Source: Gilliamella sp. Lep-s35 (GTDB taxonomy: Bacteria; Pseudomonadota; Gammaproteobacteria; Enterobacterales; Orbaceae). Taken from it: a DNA stretch of 64,000 nt. The stretch lies in the NCBI RefSeq assembly GCF_009795845.1, contig NZ_WTEX01000006.1, forward strand, positions 43,363-107,362, in the 5' to 3' direction. Each line of letters starts with the position of its first letter. Positions within the stretch are counted from its first letter, which is position 1. The notes under the pieces were generated by a model that did no database searches, was not told the DNA's origin, and was given only the letters and a program-made list of their open reading frames with translations. Of the stretch, positions 15,164-23,805 are shown piece after piece. The position numbers and the translations under genes were made by a program.

Positions 15164-15173
15164 TCACAAAGAT

Positions 15174-15196
15174 AAAGACGAGAATTGCTCGTCTTT
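15174..15196 (+). terminator. Hairpin after carB
   Basis: The perfect 9-bp stem AAAGACGAG / CTCGTCTTT with a 5-nt loop starts 10 bp after the carB stop. It is followed by AAAAA rather than a long U run, so termination strength is uncertain. It separates carAB from the CRISPR-Cas locus. Confidence 0.6.
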
Positions 15197-15333
15197 AAAA
15201 ATTCCATCCACAATATAATAATTTAGAAATCACGCAATTGTTCTTAATAAACAATAAAATGCTCGTTTTTGATACAGAATAATGTTAATTTATTTTCTAT
15301 ATTTCAATCAATTTAATTAGTTATTATCATGAT

Positions 15334-18300
15334 ATGATTCATTCTTCTGATTCAAAAAACATTCAATTAATTACAACCATAGCGGCACTACTTCATGATT
15401 TAGGTAAAGCAACGATTGGTTTTCAATCTAAATTACGAGCAGAAATGGTGGTGGCGGCTGATCCTTACCGACATGAATGGATTTCGTTACAATTATTTTT
15501 ATTAATGATTCAAGACTGCACCACGAACGAAGCCTTATTTGATCGATTAGCGCATTTTGATCAATATCAACAACAGAATCCTAATTGGCACAAGCAGCTT
15601 ACCAAAGTCGACAAAAATGATCTCACGCAGTTACCGTTATTGGCACAATGGATTGCGTGGCTCATTGTGTCGCATCATAGAATGCCGTTTTTAACGACTT
15701 CATTAGGTGGTAATAAAAAAAAGAAACAAGAAAAAGATTCATATCTCTCAGGCTTAAAAATAACTACCTTTTATAAAATATTGAATGCAGTTGATGGGTG
15801 GGTTAAAAATAGTCATAGTCAACACACTTCACCCAATGATTTTTGGCAGCTTAAAAGCGATATTACCTTAAGCCAGCTTTGGCTGAAAAAACTAAGCCGT
15901 TATGCAACCAAAGCCCTAAATCATGTTCCCTTAATGCAATTGTCTAATATTGACGCGTTTTTATTGCATATTTCACGTTTAAGCTTAATGGTGGCTGATC
16001 ATAACTACTCAAGTTTATCTTTATCAAATGACGAAGCAAAAAGAAATAGGGAAATACTGATTGCTAACACAAATTACCAAAAAGAAGCCAAACAGTGTTT
16101 GGATGATCATTTGGTCGGTGTAGCTAATTTTTCAGCCCGTTTTGCTCGTTTATTACCTAAAATAACCACGGAATTACCCGCAATTAATCAACATAAACCC
16201 TTTACCAAACGAACAACTATAAAACGATTCCAATGGCAAAATCATGCTTTTGATTTAGCAAAAAGTTATCAAAATGTCTCCGATGAATGTGGCTTTTTTG
16301 GTGTGAATATGGCATCGACTGGCTGTGGTAAAACCTTAGCCAATGGGCGGATTATGTATGCGCTTTCAAATCCAAAACGGGGCGTGCGTTTTACCATTGC
16401 ATTGGGATTACGTGTTTTAACGTTGCAAACAGGTAAAGCATTAAGAGAAAGATTACACTTAAGTGATGAACATCTGGCGATTTTAGTGGGTGGGCGTGCA
16501 ACAAAAACCTTGTTTGAACTGAGTAAGGAAGACATTGAACAAAACGATTCTCAAAAAAAATCAGAAAACCAAGGTAGTGAATCTATCGAATCGTTACTTG
16601 ATGAATATATTGATGTAGCTGAAAGTGGTATTGCTGATTGTGAATTAGGTACTATTATCGAAGACAGTAAAGCACGGCAATTACTTTATGCGCCTATTGT
16701 GACATGCACAATTGACCATATTATTCAAGCTAGCGAATGTAGCCGAGGCGGTAAATATATTGCACCAACGTTAAGATTGTTAACCTCAGATTTGATTTTA
16801 GATGAGCCAGATGATTTTGATCAACACGACTTGCCTGCACTAGCGCGTTTAGTCCATTTAGCTGGATTGTTTGGGAGCAAAGTACTGCTGTCATCGGCGA
16901 CCTTAACGCCAGATTTAATTGCCGGATTATTTGATGCTTACCAAGCAGGGCGAAAAATTTGGAATCAAAATAACCAATATGCCGATAATGCCATTGTATG
17001 TGGTTGGTTTGATGAATATGAACAGTCGATATCACAAATTGCTGATACCAAAACGTTTAGCGATCACCATCAACAATTTGTAGCAATGCGCATTCATCAA
17101 TTAGCACAAAGTGCAATCCGTCGTCAAGGGTATATTTTAGATCTACTAAATTACCAAGAAAATAAAACAGAAAACCAAAAAATTAATTATGGTGTGCTAG
17201 CTAAACAACTATTAGATCAAGCTTATCAATTTCACCAAGATCATCATCAAATTGATAAAAAATCACAAAAAAAGGTAAGTATCGGTTTAATGCGTTTTGC
17301 CCATACAGAAGATGTTATTTCACTTACCGAACAAATTTACGAACAAAAGAAGTTACCTAGTGATACTGCTTTTCATATCGTGGTTTATCATGCTCGACAA
17401 CTGCTGTTATTGCGTAGCCAATTAGAAGAAAAACTTGATAGAATTTTAAATCGCAGTGATGAACAGGCACTATTTAACCAACCTGAAATTTGTCAAGCTA
17501 TAAAAGGTAGCAAGAAAGAAAATCATATCTTTATTGTGATTGGCACACCAGTCACCGAAGTCGGTCGTGATCATGATTATGATTGGGCGATTGTCGAACC
17601 ATCATCCATGCGATCTATTATCCAGTTAGTAGGGCGAGTATGGCGTCACCGACCACAAAAAATCGCGCAGAAAGCCAATGTAGCCATATTAGGATCGAAT
17701 TTAAAAGCAATTGAATCTAATTATCGTACGGATCAAGCCTGTTTTACTAAACCAGGGTTTGAAGAAGAGCAATTATTTTTGCTGAAAACCCATAAAACCC
17801 ATGAACTAATTCCTGAGCATCAGTTAGTAAATATTGATGCAGTTCCACGTATTAAGTCTTGCCCAGAAGATGGGCTAACGCTAGCCGAATTAGAACATAA
17901 GGTCATGGCAGATCTGTTTGCGATTAATGCCCGTAAAAGTAATTATGTGACCAGCTATTGGCAACAAGGCTTAGCTCATCACCATTGTGTGCATTTACAG
18001 GCGATTTCACCATTTAGAGGAAATGATGAGACACAAGATGAATATATTTGCCAACTCGACGACGATGGCGATTATCAATTTAGTTATGCAGATATAGCAT
18101 GGCAAACACCAGATGAACGCTGCGAAGATACCCAAAATAGTATAATTGAATATAAAAACTGGTTATTTGATAATCCTAACATTCAACCTTGGCTAATTAA
18201 TAGTGTCGAGCAAGCCATAGCAAGAATAACCGAATATTTCCCAAATAAAACGCCATATCGCTTAGCGAATGAATTTTGTAGCGTAAGCTTATATCGTAAT

Positions 18301-18351
18301 AGCAGTTGGTATTTTCATCCTTATTTAGGATTTTATGAAAAGAAAGGATAA
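15334..18351 (+). CDS. cas3: Type I-F Cas3 nuclease-helicase lacking the fused Cas2 domain
   Basis: Cas3 is recruited to the R-loop formed by the Csy complex and nicks and unwinds target DNA. The 1005-aa protein begins directly with the HD nuclease region (LLHDLGKA, His-Asp at about 21-22). It continues with Walker A ASTGCGKT (about 327-334), the DExD-type LDEPDD (about 489-494), SSATL motif III and QLVGRVWRHR motif VI, so nuclease and helicase parts look intact. In type I-F, Cas3 normally carries a Cas2 domain of about 95-110 residues before the HD domain. Here it is absent: an in-frame stop lies 48 bp upstream, no alternative start exists, and only 170 bp separate the gene from carB. No cas1 is present. 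The start codon has no clear ribosome-binding site. Confidence 0.93.
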   Translation: MIHSSDSKNIQLITTIAALLHDLGKATIGFQSKLRAEMVVAADPYRHEWISLQLFLLMIQDCTTNEALFDRLAHFDQYQQQNPNWHKQLTKVDKNDLTQLPLLAQWIAWLIVSHHRMPFLTTSLGGNKKKKQEKDSYLSGLKITTFYKILNAVDGWVKNSHSQHTSPNDFWQLKSDITLSQLWLKKLSRYATKALNHVPLMQLSNIDAFLLHISRLSLMVADHNYSSLSLSNDEAKRNREILIANTNYQKEAKQCLDDHLVGVANFSARFARLLPKITTELPAINQHKPFTKRTTIKRFQWQNHAFDLAKSYQNVSDECGFFGVNMASTGCGKTLANGRIMYALSNPKRGVRFTIALGLRVLTLQTGKALRERLHLSDEHLAILVGGRATKTLFELSKEDIEQNDSQKKSENQGSESIESLLDEYIDVAESGIADCELGTIIEDSKARQLLYAPIVTCTIDHIIQASECSRGGKYIAPTLRLLTSDLILDEPDDFDQHDLPALARLVHLAGLFGSKVLLSSATLTPDLIAGLFDAYQAGRKIWNQNNQYADNAIVCGWFDEYEQSISQIADTKTFSDHHQQFVAMRIHQLAQSAIRRQGYILDLLNYQENKTENQKINYGVLAKQLLDQAYQFHQDHHQIDKKSQKKVSIGLMRFAHTEDVISLTEQIYEQKKLPSDTAFHIVVYHARQLLLLRSQLEEKLDRILNRSDEQALFNQPEICQAIKGSKKENHIFIVIGTPVTEVGRDHDYDWAIVEPSSMRSIIQLVGRVWRHRPQKIAQKANVAILGSNLKAIESNYRTDQACFTKPGFEEEQLFLLKTHKTHELIPEHQLVNIDAVPRIKSCPEDGLTLAELEHKVMADLFAINARKSNYVTSYWQQGLAHHHCVHLQAISPFRGNDETQDEYICQLDDDGDYQFSYADIAWQTPDERCEDTQNSIIEYKNWLFDNPNIQPWLINSVEQAIARITEYFPNKTPYRLANEFCSVSLYRNSSWYFHPYLGFYEKKG

Positions 18352-18394
18352 AAGAATATTGTTTTTATACTGAAACACATAGTTACCTGAAACT

Positions 18395-18460
18395 TTTTGA
18401 CAAAATATCGTCAGGTGCATAATGGTTGCTAGTAAAAGTGAAGTAATTCTTTTATACTGA
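18395..18460 (+). promoter_or_regulatory. Candidate promoter region of the mini-CRISPR RNA
   Basis: A perfect -35 TTGACA (18397-18402) is followed after 15 bp by CATAAT (18418-18423). Further down, TATACT (18453-18458) sits 5 bp before the first pseudo-repeat with no good -35. Either could start a transcript through the mini-CRISPR. The block also contains TTTTGACA and GGTTGCT, both repeated in pseudo-repeat 1, and an inverted repeat ACCTGA / TCAGGT (18385-18390, 18411-18416). This is inference from motifs only. Confidence 0.35.
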
Positions 18461-18462
18461 GT

Positions 18463-18548
18463 TTTGACAGCCGAATAGGTTGCTGAGAAATGTTAAGTAT
18501 TTACTTTTCTTTGAAGTGAATTTTACCGCTGAATAAGCGGTCTATAAA
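18463..18548 (+). ncRNA. Putative crRNA-like regulatory RNA (CreR/CreA-type mini-CRISPR) between cas3 and csy1
   Basis: Two degenerate I-F repeats flank a 30-nt pseudo-spacer. Pseudo-repeat 1 (18463-18490) matches the array repeat at 18 of 28 positions and the general I-F repeat at 21 of 28. Pseudo-repeat 2 (18521-18548) matches the array repeat at 17 of 28. Both form the Csy4-type hairpin around the same GAATA loop (CAGCC/GGTTG and ACCGCT/AGCGGT), with compensatory changes at several pairs, and both end in an A-rich handle (CTGAGAAA, CTATAAA). The pseudo-spacer begins TGTTAAGT and matches the DNA upstream of csy1 beside a CC PAM. Known CreA and CreR RNAs of type I systems have this architecture and position. 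The function here (autorepression of the csy operon or control of an RNA toxin) is inferred. Confidence 0.7.
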
Positions 18549-18622
18549 AGTGTTAATCTCGGACAGTGTAAATTAGCTAGTTTTATTTATCGTATTGATT
18601 TTTTAAATTATTTTTTTTGTGT

Positions 18623-18669
18623 TTGATGTATCTCACCTGTTAAGTTTTAACTGTTTCTTTGTTTCTTTC
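18623..18669 (+). promoter_or_regulatory. Predicted target site of the mini-CRISPR RNA over a csy promoter
   Basis: A CC dinucleotide (18636-18637) precedes a protospacer starting at 18638 whose first 8 bases equal the pseudo-spacer seed. Identity then continues with two mismatches and a one-base gap to 18661 (21 identities in 24 columns). A weak promoter TTGATG (18623-18628), 17 bp, TTTAAC (18646-18651) overlaps the site, so Csy complex bound here would block it. The incomplete match would be expected to allow binding without Cas3 cleavage. Confidence 0.6.
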
Positions 18670-18711
18670 TTTTTTATGTTTTATTTTTAGATTATTTTTT
18701 GTGTTATTTGC

Positions 18712-18772
18712 TTGATTTTTAGCAAAGATTATTTTATTCTAATTATATTAAAATTTAAAATAAATAAGGAGG
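18712..18772 (+). promoter_or_regulatory. Candidate proximal csy1 promoter and ribosome-binding site
   Basis: TTGATT (18712-18717) and TATTCT (18735-18740) are spaced by 17 bp, a second candidate start for the csy operon. It is followed by a strong AAGGAGGG (about 18767-18774) just before the csy1 ATG. If this promoter is the real one, Cascade bound at 18638 would lie upstream of it rather than on it. Confidence 0.4.
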
Positions 18773-18776
18773 GTCA

Positions 18777-20156
18777 ATGAATAACATATCTTGGCAAGAT
18801 ATAAGAAAGGTAATTTTAGATTTTCTGCAACAACGGCTTGCCAATAATAGTAATTATAAAAGTGAAACCGCTAAGTTAGAAAAAGCAAAAGAGTTAGGCG
18901 ATCAGGTTGCAGTGAATGAAGCTCAGCAAAAGTTAGCTGAACTCGCTAAACGATTTGATTTTGAAACGTGGATGGAAGATGCCGCTATTCGTCGTATTTC
19001 ATGGCTTCTTATTGCTACCCATATAGCTAAAGGAGTGCACCCGAGCTCGAAGGCTTGTAACGCAAATTACAATACACAGATAAAGCCTAATAACCTGAAT
19101 AATTTAGTATCATCTGCTACAGTGAACACTTTGCCTTTTGATGCCAGTGGCGCTGCGGCTTTAGACATATTTGGGTTTTTAAACCAAGTTGTTAAAAATG
19201 ATATAACAATTTTACAGCTTATTATTAATAATCACCCTGCTGTTCAAGAAGCTTTATCTGATGATAAAAATAAGTCTGCTCTTTATTTGGAAAATTTTAA
19301 GCAGTTACTTAAAGATAATTGGAGTGATGCGCAGGCTTCGGAACTTAATAAGCAATTTTTCTGGCCGAATAGTGAAGAAACTTATTTGTCACAGCATGAA
19401 AATAATTATCGCTTACTGATTCCACTACATCCTAGTGCTTTGTGCCATTTGGTTTATCAAAAGGTACAAACCCGATTTTCGGAAGAAAATAAAAATGCAC
19501 GAGAATTGCGTAGAAAAAAAGATGTTGAGCATCAGCCCTATATTTCTTTTCATGATCTTGCTGTTGTCAAACTAGGTGGCAGTAATGCTCAAAATGCAAG
19601 CCAACTTATTGGTAGTCAAATGGGACGTAATTTTTTGTTACCTTCCATGCCACCTAAATTTCAAGAATCTCAATTTCCATCGATTTCCAAACACCAAAAA
19701 ACAATTTTCAATAATACACTGCAATATTTTTGCCGATTTGGTTTTAAATTACTGTTTGATATGGTTAAGGCGCCCAAAAATATTGTAGAAGAAAGAGATG
19801 ATCGTAAAGATGCATTTGCGGTGATTTTATCATTACTACTTAAGTTTGCTCGTCATATTCAAACTACTCAACCAGCCGGTTGGAGCCGTGATTATTCACT
19901 CAATTTTAATGAAAAACTTTGGCTTGATCCACAGCGAGCACAATTAGAGAATGAAGAGGATTTTAAAAAACAGTATGAACAAGGTGATTGGCAACAAAGT
20001 CTAGAAAAGCTTTTTGCAACTTGGGTTCAAACTATTTTAAAAGAGAAATTCAAAAATATTAAACAGCAATTTGCCGATCCGGAATTTAGTGAATGGCGCC
20101 GTGAATTTAGATCTGCGGTGAAAGCAAGTCAACGTAAACGGGAGGGAATCTTTTAA
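18777..20156 (+). CDS. csy1: Type I-F Csy1 (Cas8f), large subunit
   Basis: Cas8f forms the tail of the Csy surveillance complex with Csy2, contacts the crRNA 5' handle and reads the CC PAM. The 459-aa length is near the family norm. Recognisable family stretches are FETWMEDAAIRRISWLLIATHIAKGVHPSSKA (about residues 62-93), LIPLHPSALCHLVYQ (about 221-235) and QLIGSQMGRNFLLPSMPP (about 280-297). The N-terminal 60 residues are helical and Lys/Glu-rich. Its stop codon overlaps the csy2 start by one base. Upstream lies a 421-bp regulatory gap with the mini-CRISPR. Confidence 0.92.
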   Translation: MNNISWQDIRKVILDFLQQRLANNSNYKSETAKLEKAKELGDQVAVNEAQQKLAELAKRFDFETWMEDAAIRRISWLLIATHIAKGVHPSSKACNANYNTQIKPNNLNNLVSSATVNTLPFDASGAAALDIFGFLNQVVKNDITILQLIINNHPAVQEALSDDKNKSALYLENFKQLLKDNWSDAQASELNKQFFWPNSEETYLSQHENNYRLLIPLHPSALCHLVYQKVQTRFSEENKNARELRRKKDVEHQPYISFHDLAVVKLGGSNAQNASQLIGSQMGRNFLLPSMPPKFQESQFPSISKHQKTIFNNTLQYFCRFGFKLLFDMVKAPKNIVEERDDRKDAFAVILSLLLKFARHIQTTQPAGWSRDYSLNFNEKLWLDPQRAQLENEEDFKKQYEQGDWQQSLEKLFATWVQTILKEKFKNIKQQFADPEFSEWRREFRSAVKASQRKREGIF

Positions 20157-21079
20157 TGGCATTACCAGATTATTATTTATTTTTTGATCATGTCAAAATT
20201 CATAATGCTAATGCAATTTCTAGCCCATTAACGTATGGATTTCCTGCTATTTCGGGATTTTTAGGCGCTATTCATGCTTTAAGTCGTAAAATTGAATCAG
20301 AAAATCCTATTTATTTAGATGGTGTGTTAATCGCATGTCATGAATGTGATGTACAAGTTTATCGGCCAAACAACTATGCGGATTATACGTTTCGATTAAC
20401 TCGCAATCCGTTGGCCAAAAACGGTAGTACTCGTTCAATTATTGAAGAAGGTCGAGTACATCTTGATGTATCATTATTAATTGAAGTAAGAATAGAAGAT
20501 TTAGAAACATTATATGACGCCGAGCAACAGAAAGCCTTTATCCAACAGATGAAACAAAAACTTTACCAACAACGTATAGCTGGTGGTCATGTAGTATCTA
20601 TAGGGGATGTCAAGTTAATTTCTTCTGATGAATCAGATGCTGATTTAGCTAATTTGCTATTACCCGCATTTATTTTAGTTGAAGCACCACAAGATTTACA
20701 AGATATCACTACTGAATTACAGCAACAAGATCCTAATGCTACAGCGCTTGATGCCTTGATTGAAACAGCGATATTGCATCATCATCCACAAGAAAAAGAT
20801 CACTGGCAAACCACATCGGTTAAACAAGGTCGTGGTTGGCTTGTTCCTTTGCATTTGGGTTATCAAGCTATTTCACCGTTATTTTCAGCGGGTAAGGTTG
20901 AACATGCGCGCAGTAATGAGCATGCCACGCAATTTGTGGAGTGTATTTATGGGCTTGGTAAATGGGTCTTTCCTTTACGCTTGAAAGAGAGTTTATCACA
21001 GGCTTTTTGGCGTTATAAATGCAGTGAATTGCAATCTAATGATGCAGAAATTTATATTATCAATCAAGAAACTAATTAA
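20156..21079 (+). CDS. csy2: Type I-F Csy2 (Cas5f)
   Basis: Csy2 caps the crRNA 5' handle and pairs with Csy1 at the tail of the Csy complex. The 307-aa protein opens with YLFFDHVKIHNANAISSPLT and YGFPAISGFLGAIHALSRKI, the typical Cas5f start, and ends in the usual mixed beta C-terminus containing GRGWLVPLHLGYQAISP. Length is normal. It overlaps csy1 by 1 nt and csy3 follows after 35 bp, so the genes form one operon. Confidence 0.93.
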   Translation: MALPDYYLFFDHVKIHNANAISSPLTYGFPAISGFLGAIHALSRKIESENPIYLDGVLIACHECDVQVYRPNNYADYTFRLTRNPLAKNGSTRSIIEEGRVHLDVSLLIEVRIEDLETLYDAEQQKAFIQQMKQKLYQQRIAGGHVVSIGDVKLISSDESDADLANLLLPAFILVEAPQDLQDITTELQQQDPNATALDALIETAILHHHPQEKDHWQTTSVKQGRGWLVPLHLGYQAISPLFSAGKVEHARSNEHATQFVECIYGLGKWVFPLRLKESLSQAFWRYKCSELQSNDAEIYIINQETN

Positions 21080-21114
21080 GTAAATTTAGAAAATTATAGA
21101 CTAAGGAATACATT

Positions 21115-22125
21115 ATGAGTAAAGATAAAATGACAACCGCAAGTGTACTTGCTTTTGAACGTAGTTTTGATATTTCAGATGCAATTTTTGCACAGCAAAG
21201 TAATACAGATACCAATAAATTATCTCCTGTTGTAGTTACTGAAAAATCAGTCCGAGGCACTATTTCAAATCGTCTTAAAAATGCAGTGGCAAACGATCCA
21301 ACCAAATTAGATGCTGAAATACAAAAACCAAATTTACAAACAGTAGATGTCGCTTCGTTAGATGCCGATAAAGATACTTTGATCGTTACATGGAGCTGTA
21401 AAGTGTTGCCATTTTTAGGTAAACCATCAGTGTGTAATGAGCTTGAATATCAAAAAGAATTAGAAAAAACAACGCAGGGTTATATTCAAACGCAAGGAAT
21501 GACAGCACTAGCTAAGCGTTATGCTATTAATATCTTAAATGGTCGTTGGTTATGGCGTAACCGTATGGCTGCAGAGCAAATTAGCCTTTCGATTACTCGA
21601 AAAGATGATAAAAAGCCAATGATTGAAGTCAATGATGTTAAACAATATCAACTAAACTCATTTGATTATGATGATAAATCGGTGAATGATCTTGCCAAAC
21701 TGATTGAAGCAGGATTATGTGGTAAAGAGTTTGTGATTTTTAACGTTGAAGCCAAACTGAAGATGGGCTTAGGTCAAGAAGTCTACCCGTCACAAGAATT
21801 AATTCTAGATACTGGCAAAACTAAAAGTAAAGTATTGTATGAGAAGAACAAACAAGCGGCCATGCATTCACAAAAAATCAGTAATGCAATTCGAACTATC
21901 GACACTTGGTATGACGATAATGTCCAATTTCCAATAGCGATAGAACCATATGGTTCGGTCACCTCAATGGGACATGCCTTCCGACAACCAAAACAGAAAT
22001 TAGACTTTTATACCCTATTTGATAATTGGGTATTAAAAGGTGAAAAACCATTGCTTGAGCAACAACATTATGTGATTGCGGTATTAATTCGTGGTGGTGT
22101 TTTTGGTGCTAGTGGCAAGGAGTAA
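21115..22125 (+). CDS. csy3: Type I-F Csy3 (Cas7f), backbone subunit
   Basis: Six copies of Csy3 coat the crRNA spacer and form the Csy filament. The 336-aa protein shows the family N-terminus (SVLAFERSFDISDAIF), NILNGRWLWRNRMAAEQI in the middle and SVTSMGHAFRQPKQKLDFYT near residue 280. Length and order are standard. A ribosome-binding site (AAGGAA) precedes the ATG. csy4 follows after only 5 bp. Confidence 0.95.
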   Translation: MSKDKMTTASVLAFERSFDISDAIFAQQSNTDTNKLSPVVVTEKSVRGTISNRLKNAVANDPTKLDAEIQKPNLQTVDVASLDADKDTLIVTWSCKVLPFLGKPSVCNELEYQKELEKTTQGYIQTQGMTALAKRYAINILNGRWLWRNRMAAEQISLSITRKDDKKPMIEVNDVKQYQLNSFDYDDKSVNDLAKLIEAGLCGKEFVIFNVEAKLKMGLGQEVYPSQELILDTGKTKSKVLYEKNKQAAMHSQKISNAIRTIDTWYDDNVQFPIAIEPYGSVTSMGHAFRQPKQKLDFYTLFDNWVLKGEKPLLEQQHYVIAVLIRGGVFGASGKE

Positions 22126-22130
22126 ATAAT

Positions 22131-22700
22131 ATGCACTCACACTATTTAGAGCTGCGAGCTATTTCGCAAATTGAGATAACCGAGGTGGACGTGATGAATC
22201 AAGTCATGCAGTCACTGCACCAAATCTTGGTTAATCAACAAGGAAATATCGCAATTAGTTTTCCTTGTTACAATGTGCACCGAACATTAGGCGGAGTGAT
22301 TCGCCTATTTGGTACCGAGCAGGAATTGCAAAAATTTAAAGCAGATATACAGCAAAAATCATCGATTAGTGATTATGCTTTATTGATGCCTATCACTGTA
22401 GTACCGACGACGATAAAAGGCTATTTACGTTTTAGCCGTGTCAATCCTAAAGGTCAGAGTGCGTTAAGGCGTGCCGAAAAAAGATTAACAGCACAAGGTA
22501 AATGGACACCTGAAGTGAAAAATAAAATGATTGAAAAGTGGGGAAGTGTTCATTTGCAATACCCACATCTTCATTTGAATAGTAAAAGTACAGGGCAAAA
22601 ATTTATTTTGTGGATAAAGCAAGAAAAATGCCTAGAGCCAGTGCAAGGCACATTTAATAGCTATGGATTAAGCCAAACAGCCACTGTTCCTGATTTTTAA
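22131..22700 (+). CDS. csy4: Type I-F Csy4 (Cas6f), crRNA-processing endoribonuclease
   Basis: Csy4 cuts the pre-crRNA at the base of the repeat hairpin and stays bound to the 3' stem. The 189-aa protein begins HYLELRAISQIEITEVDVMN and carries His30 in SLHQIL, which lines up with the catalytic His29 of the Pseudomonas enzyme. An RFSRVNPKG-type arginine-rich region (about residues 102-110) follows, with KRLTAQGKW after it, and these lie where the RNA-contacting helix is expected. The array repeats it must cut have lost one conserved stem pair (see findings). Confidence 0.93.
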   Translation: MHSHYLELRAISQIEITEVDVMNQVMQSLHQILVNQQGNIAISFPCYNVHRTLGGVIRLFGTEQELQKFKADIQQKSSISDYALLMPITVVPTTIKGYLRFSRVNPKGQSALRRAEKRLTAQGKWTPEVKNKMIEKWGSVHLQYPHLHLNSKSTGQKFILWIKQEKCLEPVQGTFNSYGLSQTATVPDF

Positions 22701-22837: not shown

Positions 22838-23805
22838 CTTCAATGCCGTGTAGGCAGTTTAGAAACATGATTTGGGGCAATGAACCCTTTGTCAACGCTT
22901 CAATGCCGTGTAGGCAGTTTAGAAAAATTGAGACCTGACTCCGATGCTCCAATTTGACTTCAATACCGTGTAGGCAGTTTAGAAAATGTCATTACCGAAA
23001 TTACGTAAGTATTCGATCTTCAATGCCGTGTAGGCAGTTTAGAAAATTTTACCGCCATTAAATATTATTGAAAGGGTCTTCAATGCCGTGTAGGCAGTTT
23101 AGAAAAATGTATCCATCGATACCGCCACTTTGATTTACTTCAATGCCGTGTAGGCAGTTTAGAAAATGGGAGTCTCACCCTCGTCGAATGTTACGACCTT
23201 CAATGCCGTGTAGGCAGTTTAGAAATGAATGTCAAGGTGTTTATAAAAATTTTATTTCTTCAATGCCGTGTAGGCAGTTTAGAAATGTTGATGCTTGAGT
23301 TAGCAAAACTTCAAATCCTTCAATGCCGTGTAGGCAGTTTAGAAAGATTTGTGATTGTTACATGCTGAACATTGCTTCTTCAATGCCGTGTAGGCAGTTT
23401 AGAAAACGTTGGCAACCGTATGCACAAAGTTATATTGCTTCAATGCCGTGTAGGCAGTTTAGAAAATCGCGCACCGTTGTACATTCTTGCTTCAGAGCTT
23501 CAATGCTGTGTAGGCAGTTTAGAAAGTGCTGTGAGTTGATGCTAGGTAATTGTGATACTTCAATGCCGTGTAGGCAGTTTAGAAATGCAGAGTGTTTTGC
23601 AACCCATTCATTTGTATCTTCAATGCCGTGTAGGCAGTTTAGAAATACCCAATGACGATAACACCAAGCTCGTGTAACTTCAATGCCGTGTAGGCAGTTT
23701 AGAAATGTTGATAGGGCACCATAACCAACACCGCCTACTTCAATGCCGTGTAGGCAGTTTAGAAATTGTTCAGATTTAAATAGCATCATTGTTGTAACTT
23801 CAATA
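22838..23805 (+). CRISPR. Type I-F CRISPR array, 16 repeats and 16 spacers
   Basis: Sixteen 28-bp repeats (core TGCCGTGTAGGCA, ending TTTAGAAA) occur every 60 bp from 22838 to 23738, each separated by 32-bp spacers. Repeat 3 (22958) carries ACC for GCC and repeat 12 (23498) CTG for CCG. The 16th spacer (23766-23797) is followed only by a truncated repeat (CTTCAAT, 23798-23804). The repeat sense and the decayed end put the leader at the csy4 side. All spacers differ. None matched another part of the window by eye. Two apparent ORFs across the array are repeat artefacts. Confidence 0.98.

Follow-up and report, generated by a model that had tools for sequence, protein, structure and literature searches.

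A mini-CRISPR in the cas3-csy1 gap of Gilliamella whose guide matches the csy1-4 upstream region: a likely CreR-type autorepressor

What is a CRISPR-like unit doing between cas3 and the effector operon of a type I-F locus that has a regular array of its own? The question is raised by a 64,000-nucleotide stretch of DNA from Gilliamella sp. Lep-s35 (the whole stretch is hereafter called the window), in which the order of the locus is cas3 (15334-18351), csy1-4 (18777-22700) and the array (from 22838). The gap between cas3 and csy1 is 425 bp long and houses two degenerate repeats, a 30-nt pseudo-spacer, and a target for that pseudo-spacer. The features of the locus are as follows; class A denotes the window and the related loci L002, L003, and L004.

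15334..18351, plus strand: cas3f (TIGR02562, profile positions 108 to 1110 matched; Cas2 domain absent)
18453..18458, plus strand: TATACT, likely the -10 box of a putative mini-CRISPR promoter, 4 nt 5' of repeat 1
18463..18490, plus strand: degenerate I-F repeat 1, TTTGACAGCCGAATAGGTTG followed by CTGAGAAA; 5-bp stem, 5-nt loop, and 8-nt handle CTGAGAAA
18491..18520, plus strand: pseudo-spacer (guide), 30 nt; 15/20 ungapped identities and 8/8 seed identities to the target
18521..18548, plus strand: degenerate I-F repeat 2, TTTTACCGCTGAATAAGCGG followed by TCTATAAA
18623-18651, plus strand: alternative candidate csy1 promoter TTGATG-17-TTTAAC; weak, overlaps the target
18636..18637, plus strand: CC protospacer-adjacent motif (PAM), invariant in the four class A loci
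18638..18669, plus strand: predicted guide target; seed 18638-18645, pairing constrained as far as about position 17 (18654)
18712..18740, plus strand: candidate csy1 promoter TTGATT-17-TATTCT, from sequence inspection; weak consensus
18777..20156, plus strand: csy1 (cas8f; TIGR02564, 338.9 bits, above cut-off), first gene of the operon predicted to be repressed
20156..22700, plus strand: csy2, csy3, and csy4 (cas6f) (TIGR02565, TIGR02566, and TIGR02563, above cut-off), remainder of the effector complex
22838..23765, plus strand: cognate I-F CRISPR array, 16 repeats at 60-nt spacing

The system has lost its adaptation module (Cas1 and the Cas2 domain) and kept its effector genes and array. No match to Cas1 was found across the window's own genome; Cas1 of some type was present in 30 of the 35 genus genomes searched, a set that includes this one. 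For comparison, L002 carries a cas1 ORF and a cas2-3 ORF of 1107 aa. At 15164-15460 of the window, the first codons of the cas3 frame resemble the start of the L002 cas1, and the Cas3 HD domain follows with no Cas2 part.

The coordinates and letters of the mini-CRISPR (18463-18669) given in a preliminary description of the window were found to be correct on re-check. The element is not a canonical CRISPR array: its repeats are not near-identical to the array repeat, with 18/28 identities for repeat 1 and 17/28 for repeat 2. An identity of at least 17/28 was reached at seven plus-strand sites outside the array, both mini-CRISPR repeats included; repeat identity by itself is unexceptional and would not convince. 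The combination of a 5-bp stem, a 5-nt loop, and an 8-nt handle, the last judged by a consensus that we assumed, occurred outside the array at six plus-strand and two minus-strand sites. Only those at 18463 and 18521 pair up at a spacing of 54-64 nt outside the array in the 64-kb window, and 30 dinucleotide shuffles of the 64 kb yielded no such pair on the plus strand, under criteria (stem, loop, handle, and spacing) chosen after the element was known. The Rfam model CRISPR-DR4 fell on repeat 2 exactly (18521-18548) with 21.6 bits (E 0.054), below its gathering score of 35. Predicted folding energies were -6.4 kcal/mol for repeat 1 (z -2.4) and -9.2 kcal/mol for repeat 2 (z -3.6).

The first eight bases of the pseudo-spacer had been said to recur at 18638 beside CC, and this was borne out (8/8 seed). 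A further claim, that 21 of 24 alignment columns beyond the seed are identical, stood as arithmetic, but the count takes in the seed and requires a 1-nt gap, and the PAM-distal pairing is unconvincing. Without gaps, the measure that a type I effector would use, guide and target agreed at 15 of 20 positions. The target starts 147 nt from the start of the pseudo-spacer. CC followed by the full seed has a single site on the two strands of the window, and the 16-letter target pattern CCTGTTANGTNTTNAC has one site in the 2.47-Mb genome, the predicted target. The guide-target score was equalled by one of 500 spacer shuffles, a modest result (p 0.002). The PAM-distal part of the guide (18499-18521) can fold on itself into a 9-bp stem.

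The element was then placed among its relatives. Csy1 searches returned 14 named loci, and 29 of the 99 whole genomes searched had a match; after removal of duplicates and exclusion of six distant loci (L038-L043), 23 loci were examined. A mini-CRISPR of the same architecture was present in 19 (the window, L002-L004, L006-L013, L015, L021, L030-L032, L035, and L044) and was not seen in L005, L034, or L036; L014 stops at a contig edge. Because L005 has csy1 without a mini-CRISPR, the element is dispensable. The sequence TATANT lay 2-4 nt 5' of repeat 1 in all 19 loci (in L031, counted before its first unit), and the stem of repeat 1 had two pairs altered on both sides in L009 and L012 relative to the four class A loci. 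Outside class A (15/19 loci), repeat 2 forms a hairpin with five or more T among the 8 bases after it and may therefore double as a terminator; in the four class A loci just 3-4 T follow the hairpin. On a poorly resolved Csy1 tree of 22 proteins (6 of 19 inner branches starred), class A needs two changes, the long branch of L008 falling inside it.

The adopted target adjoins CC in 17 of the 19 loci and CT in two. When CC was required, 18 of the 19 had a downstream site of at least 7/8 seed matches; when no PAM was required, the best site adjoined CC in 16, CT in two, and neither in one (L044, where the non-CC site outscored the adopted CC site by one point). In L007 the better match adjoins CT rather than CC, and in L031 the match beside CT was 17/20 with a seed of 8/8; shuffle p values were 0.016 for the CC site of L007 and 0.83 for that of L031. 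According to the accessible text of PMC7296934, an I-F1 effector accepts C or CT as PAM.

The seed-target match, on which the preliminary description hung, was not lost in relatives that keep the locus; it was kept, and guide and target had changed together. Seeds were diverse across loci (TGTTAAGT, TTTTAAGT, TATTAAAT, CATGAAAT, ACATTACG, ATATTACG, and others), and each target tracked its own guide. Among 14 representatives, which are related loci and hence not 14 independent events, the self-match sum was 331 as compared to a maximum of 303 in 20,000 permutations (PAM not required), and self was the sole or tied best in 13 of 14 rows of the guide-target matrix. Within class A, guide positions 2 (G/T) and 13 (A/T) vary, with the target varying in step, and position 12 is mismatched in all four loci. 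Since only 4 of the 23 loci share the window's arrangement, its own co-changes rest on few events.

Mismatches between guide and target were not evenly spread. In 18 pairs, positions 1-5 and 7-8 were free of them, but position 6 had seven and position 12 had 14. With near copies dropped (15 pairs, positions 1-18), 26 of the 45 mismatches lay at positions 6, 12, and 18, such that 26 of 45 cells were mismatched there versus 19 of 225 elsewhere. This share of 0.58 exceeded that of shuffled guides (mean 0.18, maximum 0.28 in 300 rounds), which were subject to the same picking rule as the real ones, without the PAM. Clean seeds are partly selected for, because targets were picked by seed and identity; the 6-nt mismatch period is not a product of that picking. 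When a type I effector pairs its guide with a target, every sixth base is skipped. The period is as expected for such an effector and therefore supports an effector-bound guide over an antisense RNA. The positions kept paired were 1-5, 7-8, and mostly 9-11 and 13, while 6, 12, and 18 drifted; the seed of haloarchaeal CreA, as given in the accessible text of PMC8501985, comprises positions 1-5 and 7-11, with the same gap at 6. The guide-target pairs of one family thus offer an evolutionary readout, independent of experiments, of which positions stay paired and which drift at sites of predicted I-F effector binding without cleavage.

The match and the relatives together support what had been proposed for the window, a crRNA-like element with degenerate repeats aimed upstream of csy1 beside a type I-F PAM. 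The element shows two of the features by which CreR is recognized: a crRNA-like unit close to cas genes with one or two degenerate repeats, and a guide partly complementary, beside a PAM, to the region upstream of the cognate cas operon. The mini-CRISPR is likely a CreR-type autorepressor of csy1-4. The predicted course of events is as follows: the mini-CRISPR RNA would start next to repeat 1, from the TATACT box, and Csy4 would cut it after each stem. Csy1-4 would then load the guide RNA, sit at 18636-18669, and lower csy1-4 transcription, the Csy complex thus binding in front of its own operon without cutting. No cutting is expected: the constraint on pairing ends at about position 17, and Cas2/3 is triggered by an I-F1 effector only once the R-loop is full-length (PMC7296934, accessible text). 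crRNAs from the array would compete for the complex; once the complex is taken up by crRNAs or by an anti-CRISPR protein, repression would ease and csy1-4 would rise. The scheme follows the logic described for CreR in PMC12737573 (accessible text).

This reading is weakest at the csy1 promoter. In the 18712-18740 candidate, TTGAT and TATTCT are kept at one spacing throughout class A, where it is the best-conserved candidate. It starts 43 nt past the end of the protospacer, a distance that would speak for a road-block or an upstream effect rather than direct occlusion. A promoter scan of 18300-18800 gave no plus-strand match and three minus-strand matches, close to the shuffled mean of 2.8.

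CreR, cas-regulating RNAs, were reportedly the subject of Liu et al. 2023. In the accessible texts of PMC12737573, PMC12948488, and PMC13131331, CreR shares with our element a mini-CRISPR near cas genes and a guide partly complementary to a site upstream of the cas operon, and in neither is a toxin gene seen, in ours by a search for mini-ORFs with a Shine-Dalgarno sequence. Our element differs in belonging to subtype I-F and in that 14 relatives have a MerR-like gene between target and csy1. The types listed for CreR are I-B, I-E, and V-A in PMC13131331 (accessible text) and 'Type I and Type V-A' in that of PMC12737573; the latter wording does not clearly exclude I-F from the known range, and a CreR in I-F may not be clearly outside what is already known. 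An autorepressor here would extend RNA-guided cas autorepression to type I-F. No description of the element in Gilliamella was found in the literature searched, which covered few subscription papers. With haloarchaeal CreA (PMC8501985, accessible text) the element has in common two degenerate repeats, the seed pattern, and a second repeat that degenerates where a terminator evolved; that system differs in being I-B and in having an RNA toxin as its target.

The closest alternative is that the guide acts as a CreA antitoxin within a CreTA module, repressing a small toxin RNA between target and csy1 and so making CRISPR addictive. An I-F CreTA of Acinetobacter (PMC10097628, accessible text) resembles the window in having a cas3-csy1 gap of about 400 bp (425 bp in the window), two degenerate hairpin repeats, a short guide, a CC-flanked target, and a mismatch at position 6, and the same study reports 19 further modules from cas3-csy1 gaps; Gilliamella is not named in the main text of that paper, as far as it is accessible. 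The Acinetobacter creT, however, has a conserved, divergent 33-bp mini-ORF with a Shine-Dalgarno sequence, whereas no such mini-ORF was seen on either strand of 18549-18776, between repeat 2 and csy1. A toxin RNA at this spot, the other possibility that the preliminary description had raised, was thus not upheld by a search outside which an ORF-less RNA would fall. What follows the target in all four class A loci, moreover, is a U-rich stretch together with the csy1 leader. We regard a CreTA module as improbable. An apparent Shine-Dalgarno sequence at the edge of the scanned region was a slicing artefact.

A small gene lies between target and csy1 in L006-L013, L015, L021, L030-L032, and L044, and its lineage-restricted product models as a MerR/RacA-like winged helix, not an RNA toxin. 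Its repression by a crRNA-like RNA, predicted for these relatives, would parallel CrePA (PMC12737573, accessible text), in which such an RNA represses a protein-coding gene. CreP is typically a KilA-N-domain toxin according to the same text, the Gilliamella protein being modelled as a winged helix instead. The element does not seem to belong with CrePA: no ORF of at least 30 aa overlaps 18549-18776 in the window, which has no small gene, and the small proteins of the four relatives scanned had no KilA-N match in Pfam. In 12 of the 14 small-gene relatives, a promoter match (TTGA..-N16-18-TANNNT) has its start inside the 32-nt protospacer, 15-31 nt in, and its -35 box would thus be covered by the complex at least partly. 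A terminator-like hairpin lies between the small gene and csy1 in these relatives.

These relatives suggest a two-layer circuit and lead us to a broader proposal, which we put forward tentatively and hold to be possible rather than probable: that in Gilliamella and Frischella the I-F effector serves as the repressor in a lineage-wide, fast-evolving circuit, in which the guide re-matches a drifting target promoter under 5+1 pairing. The ancestral route would have run via the MerR-like transcription factor gene, with a terminator before csy1, and the window's lineage would have dispensed with the gene and put csy1-4 directly under the guide, which would make an I-F CreR. If true, CRISPR would here control a transcription factor by which the effector level is itself set.

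The same loss could instead have left a relic, a guide that once controlled the MerR-like gene and no longer regulates anything in the lineage of the window. The 14 mini-CRISPR relatives that keep the small gene are compatible with this, as is L035, which lacks it and yet retains guide, target, and promoter-like sequence. Among the gene-less window, L002, L003, and L004, however, guide and target co-differ at two positions, a pattern not predicted by neutral decay, and we judge a relic very unlikely. A chance similarity, or a functionless leftover self-targeting spacer, could draw on the A/T-rich gap, the mere 17-18/28 repeat identities, and a window shuffle p of only 0.002, but is scarcely credible against presence in 19 of 23 loci, a mismatch period of 6 nt, and co-change beyond all 20,000 permutations, which already speak against it at the family level.

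Several smaller features of the small-gene relatives were also noted. For L006 and L010, 517 nt separate the adopted target from the small gene downstream of it; the gap there is about 1150 bp and the module looks duplicated, there being another repeat-like unit and a further promoter that has a target-like site. Palindromes such as ATGTAAT-N4-ATTACAT occur just downstream of the small gene's promoter in L031, L032, L044, L006, and L010 and were not seen in some other lineages; they are possible operators of the small protein. In L007, L010, L013, L031, L032, and L044, the 5' leader of the small gene contains a hairpin (AACCCCAAATG...ATTTGGGGTT) before the ribosome site, the stems of which seem to vary in step.
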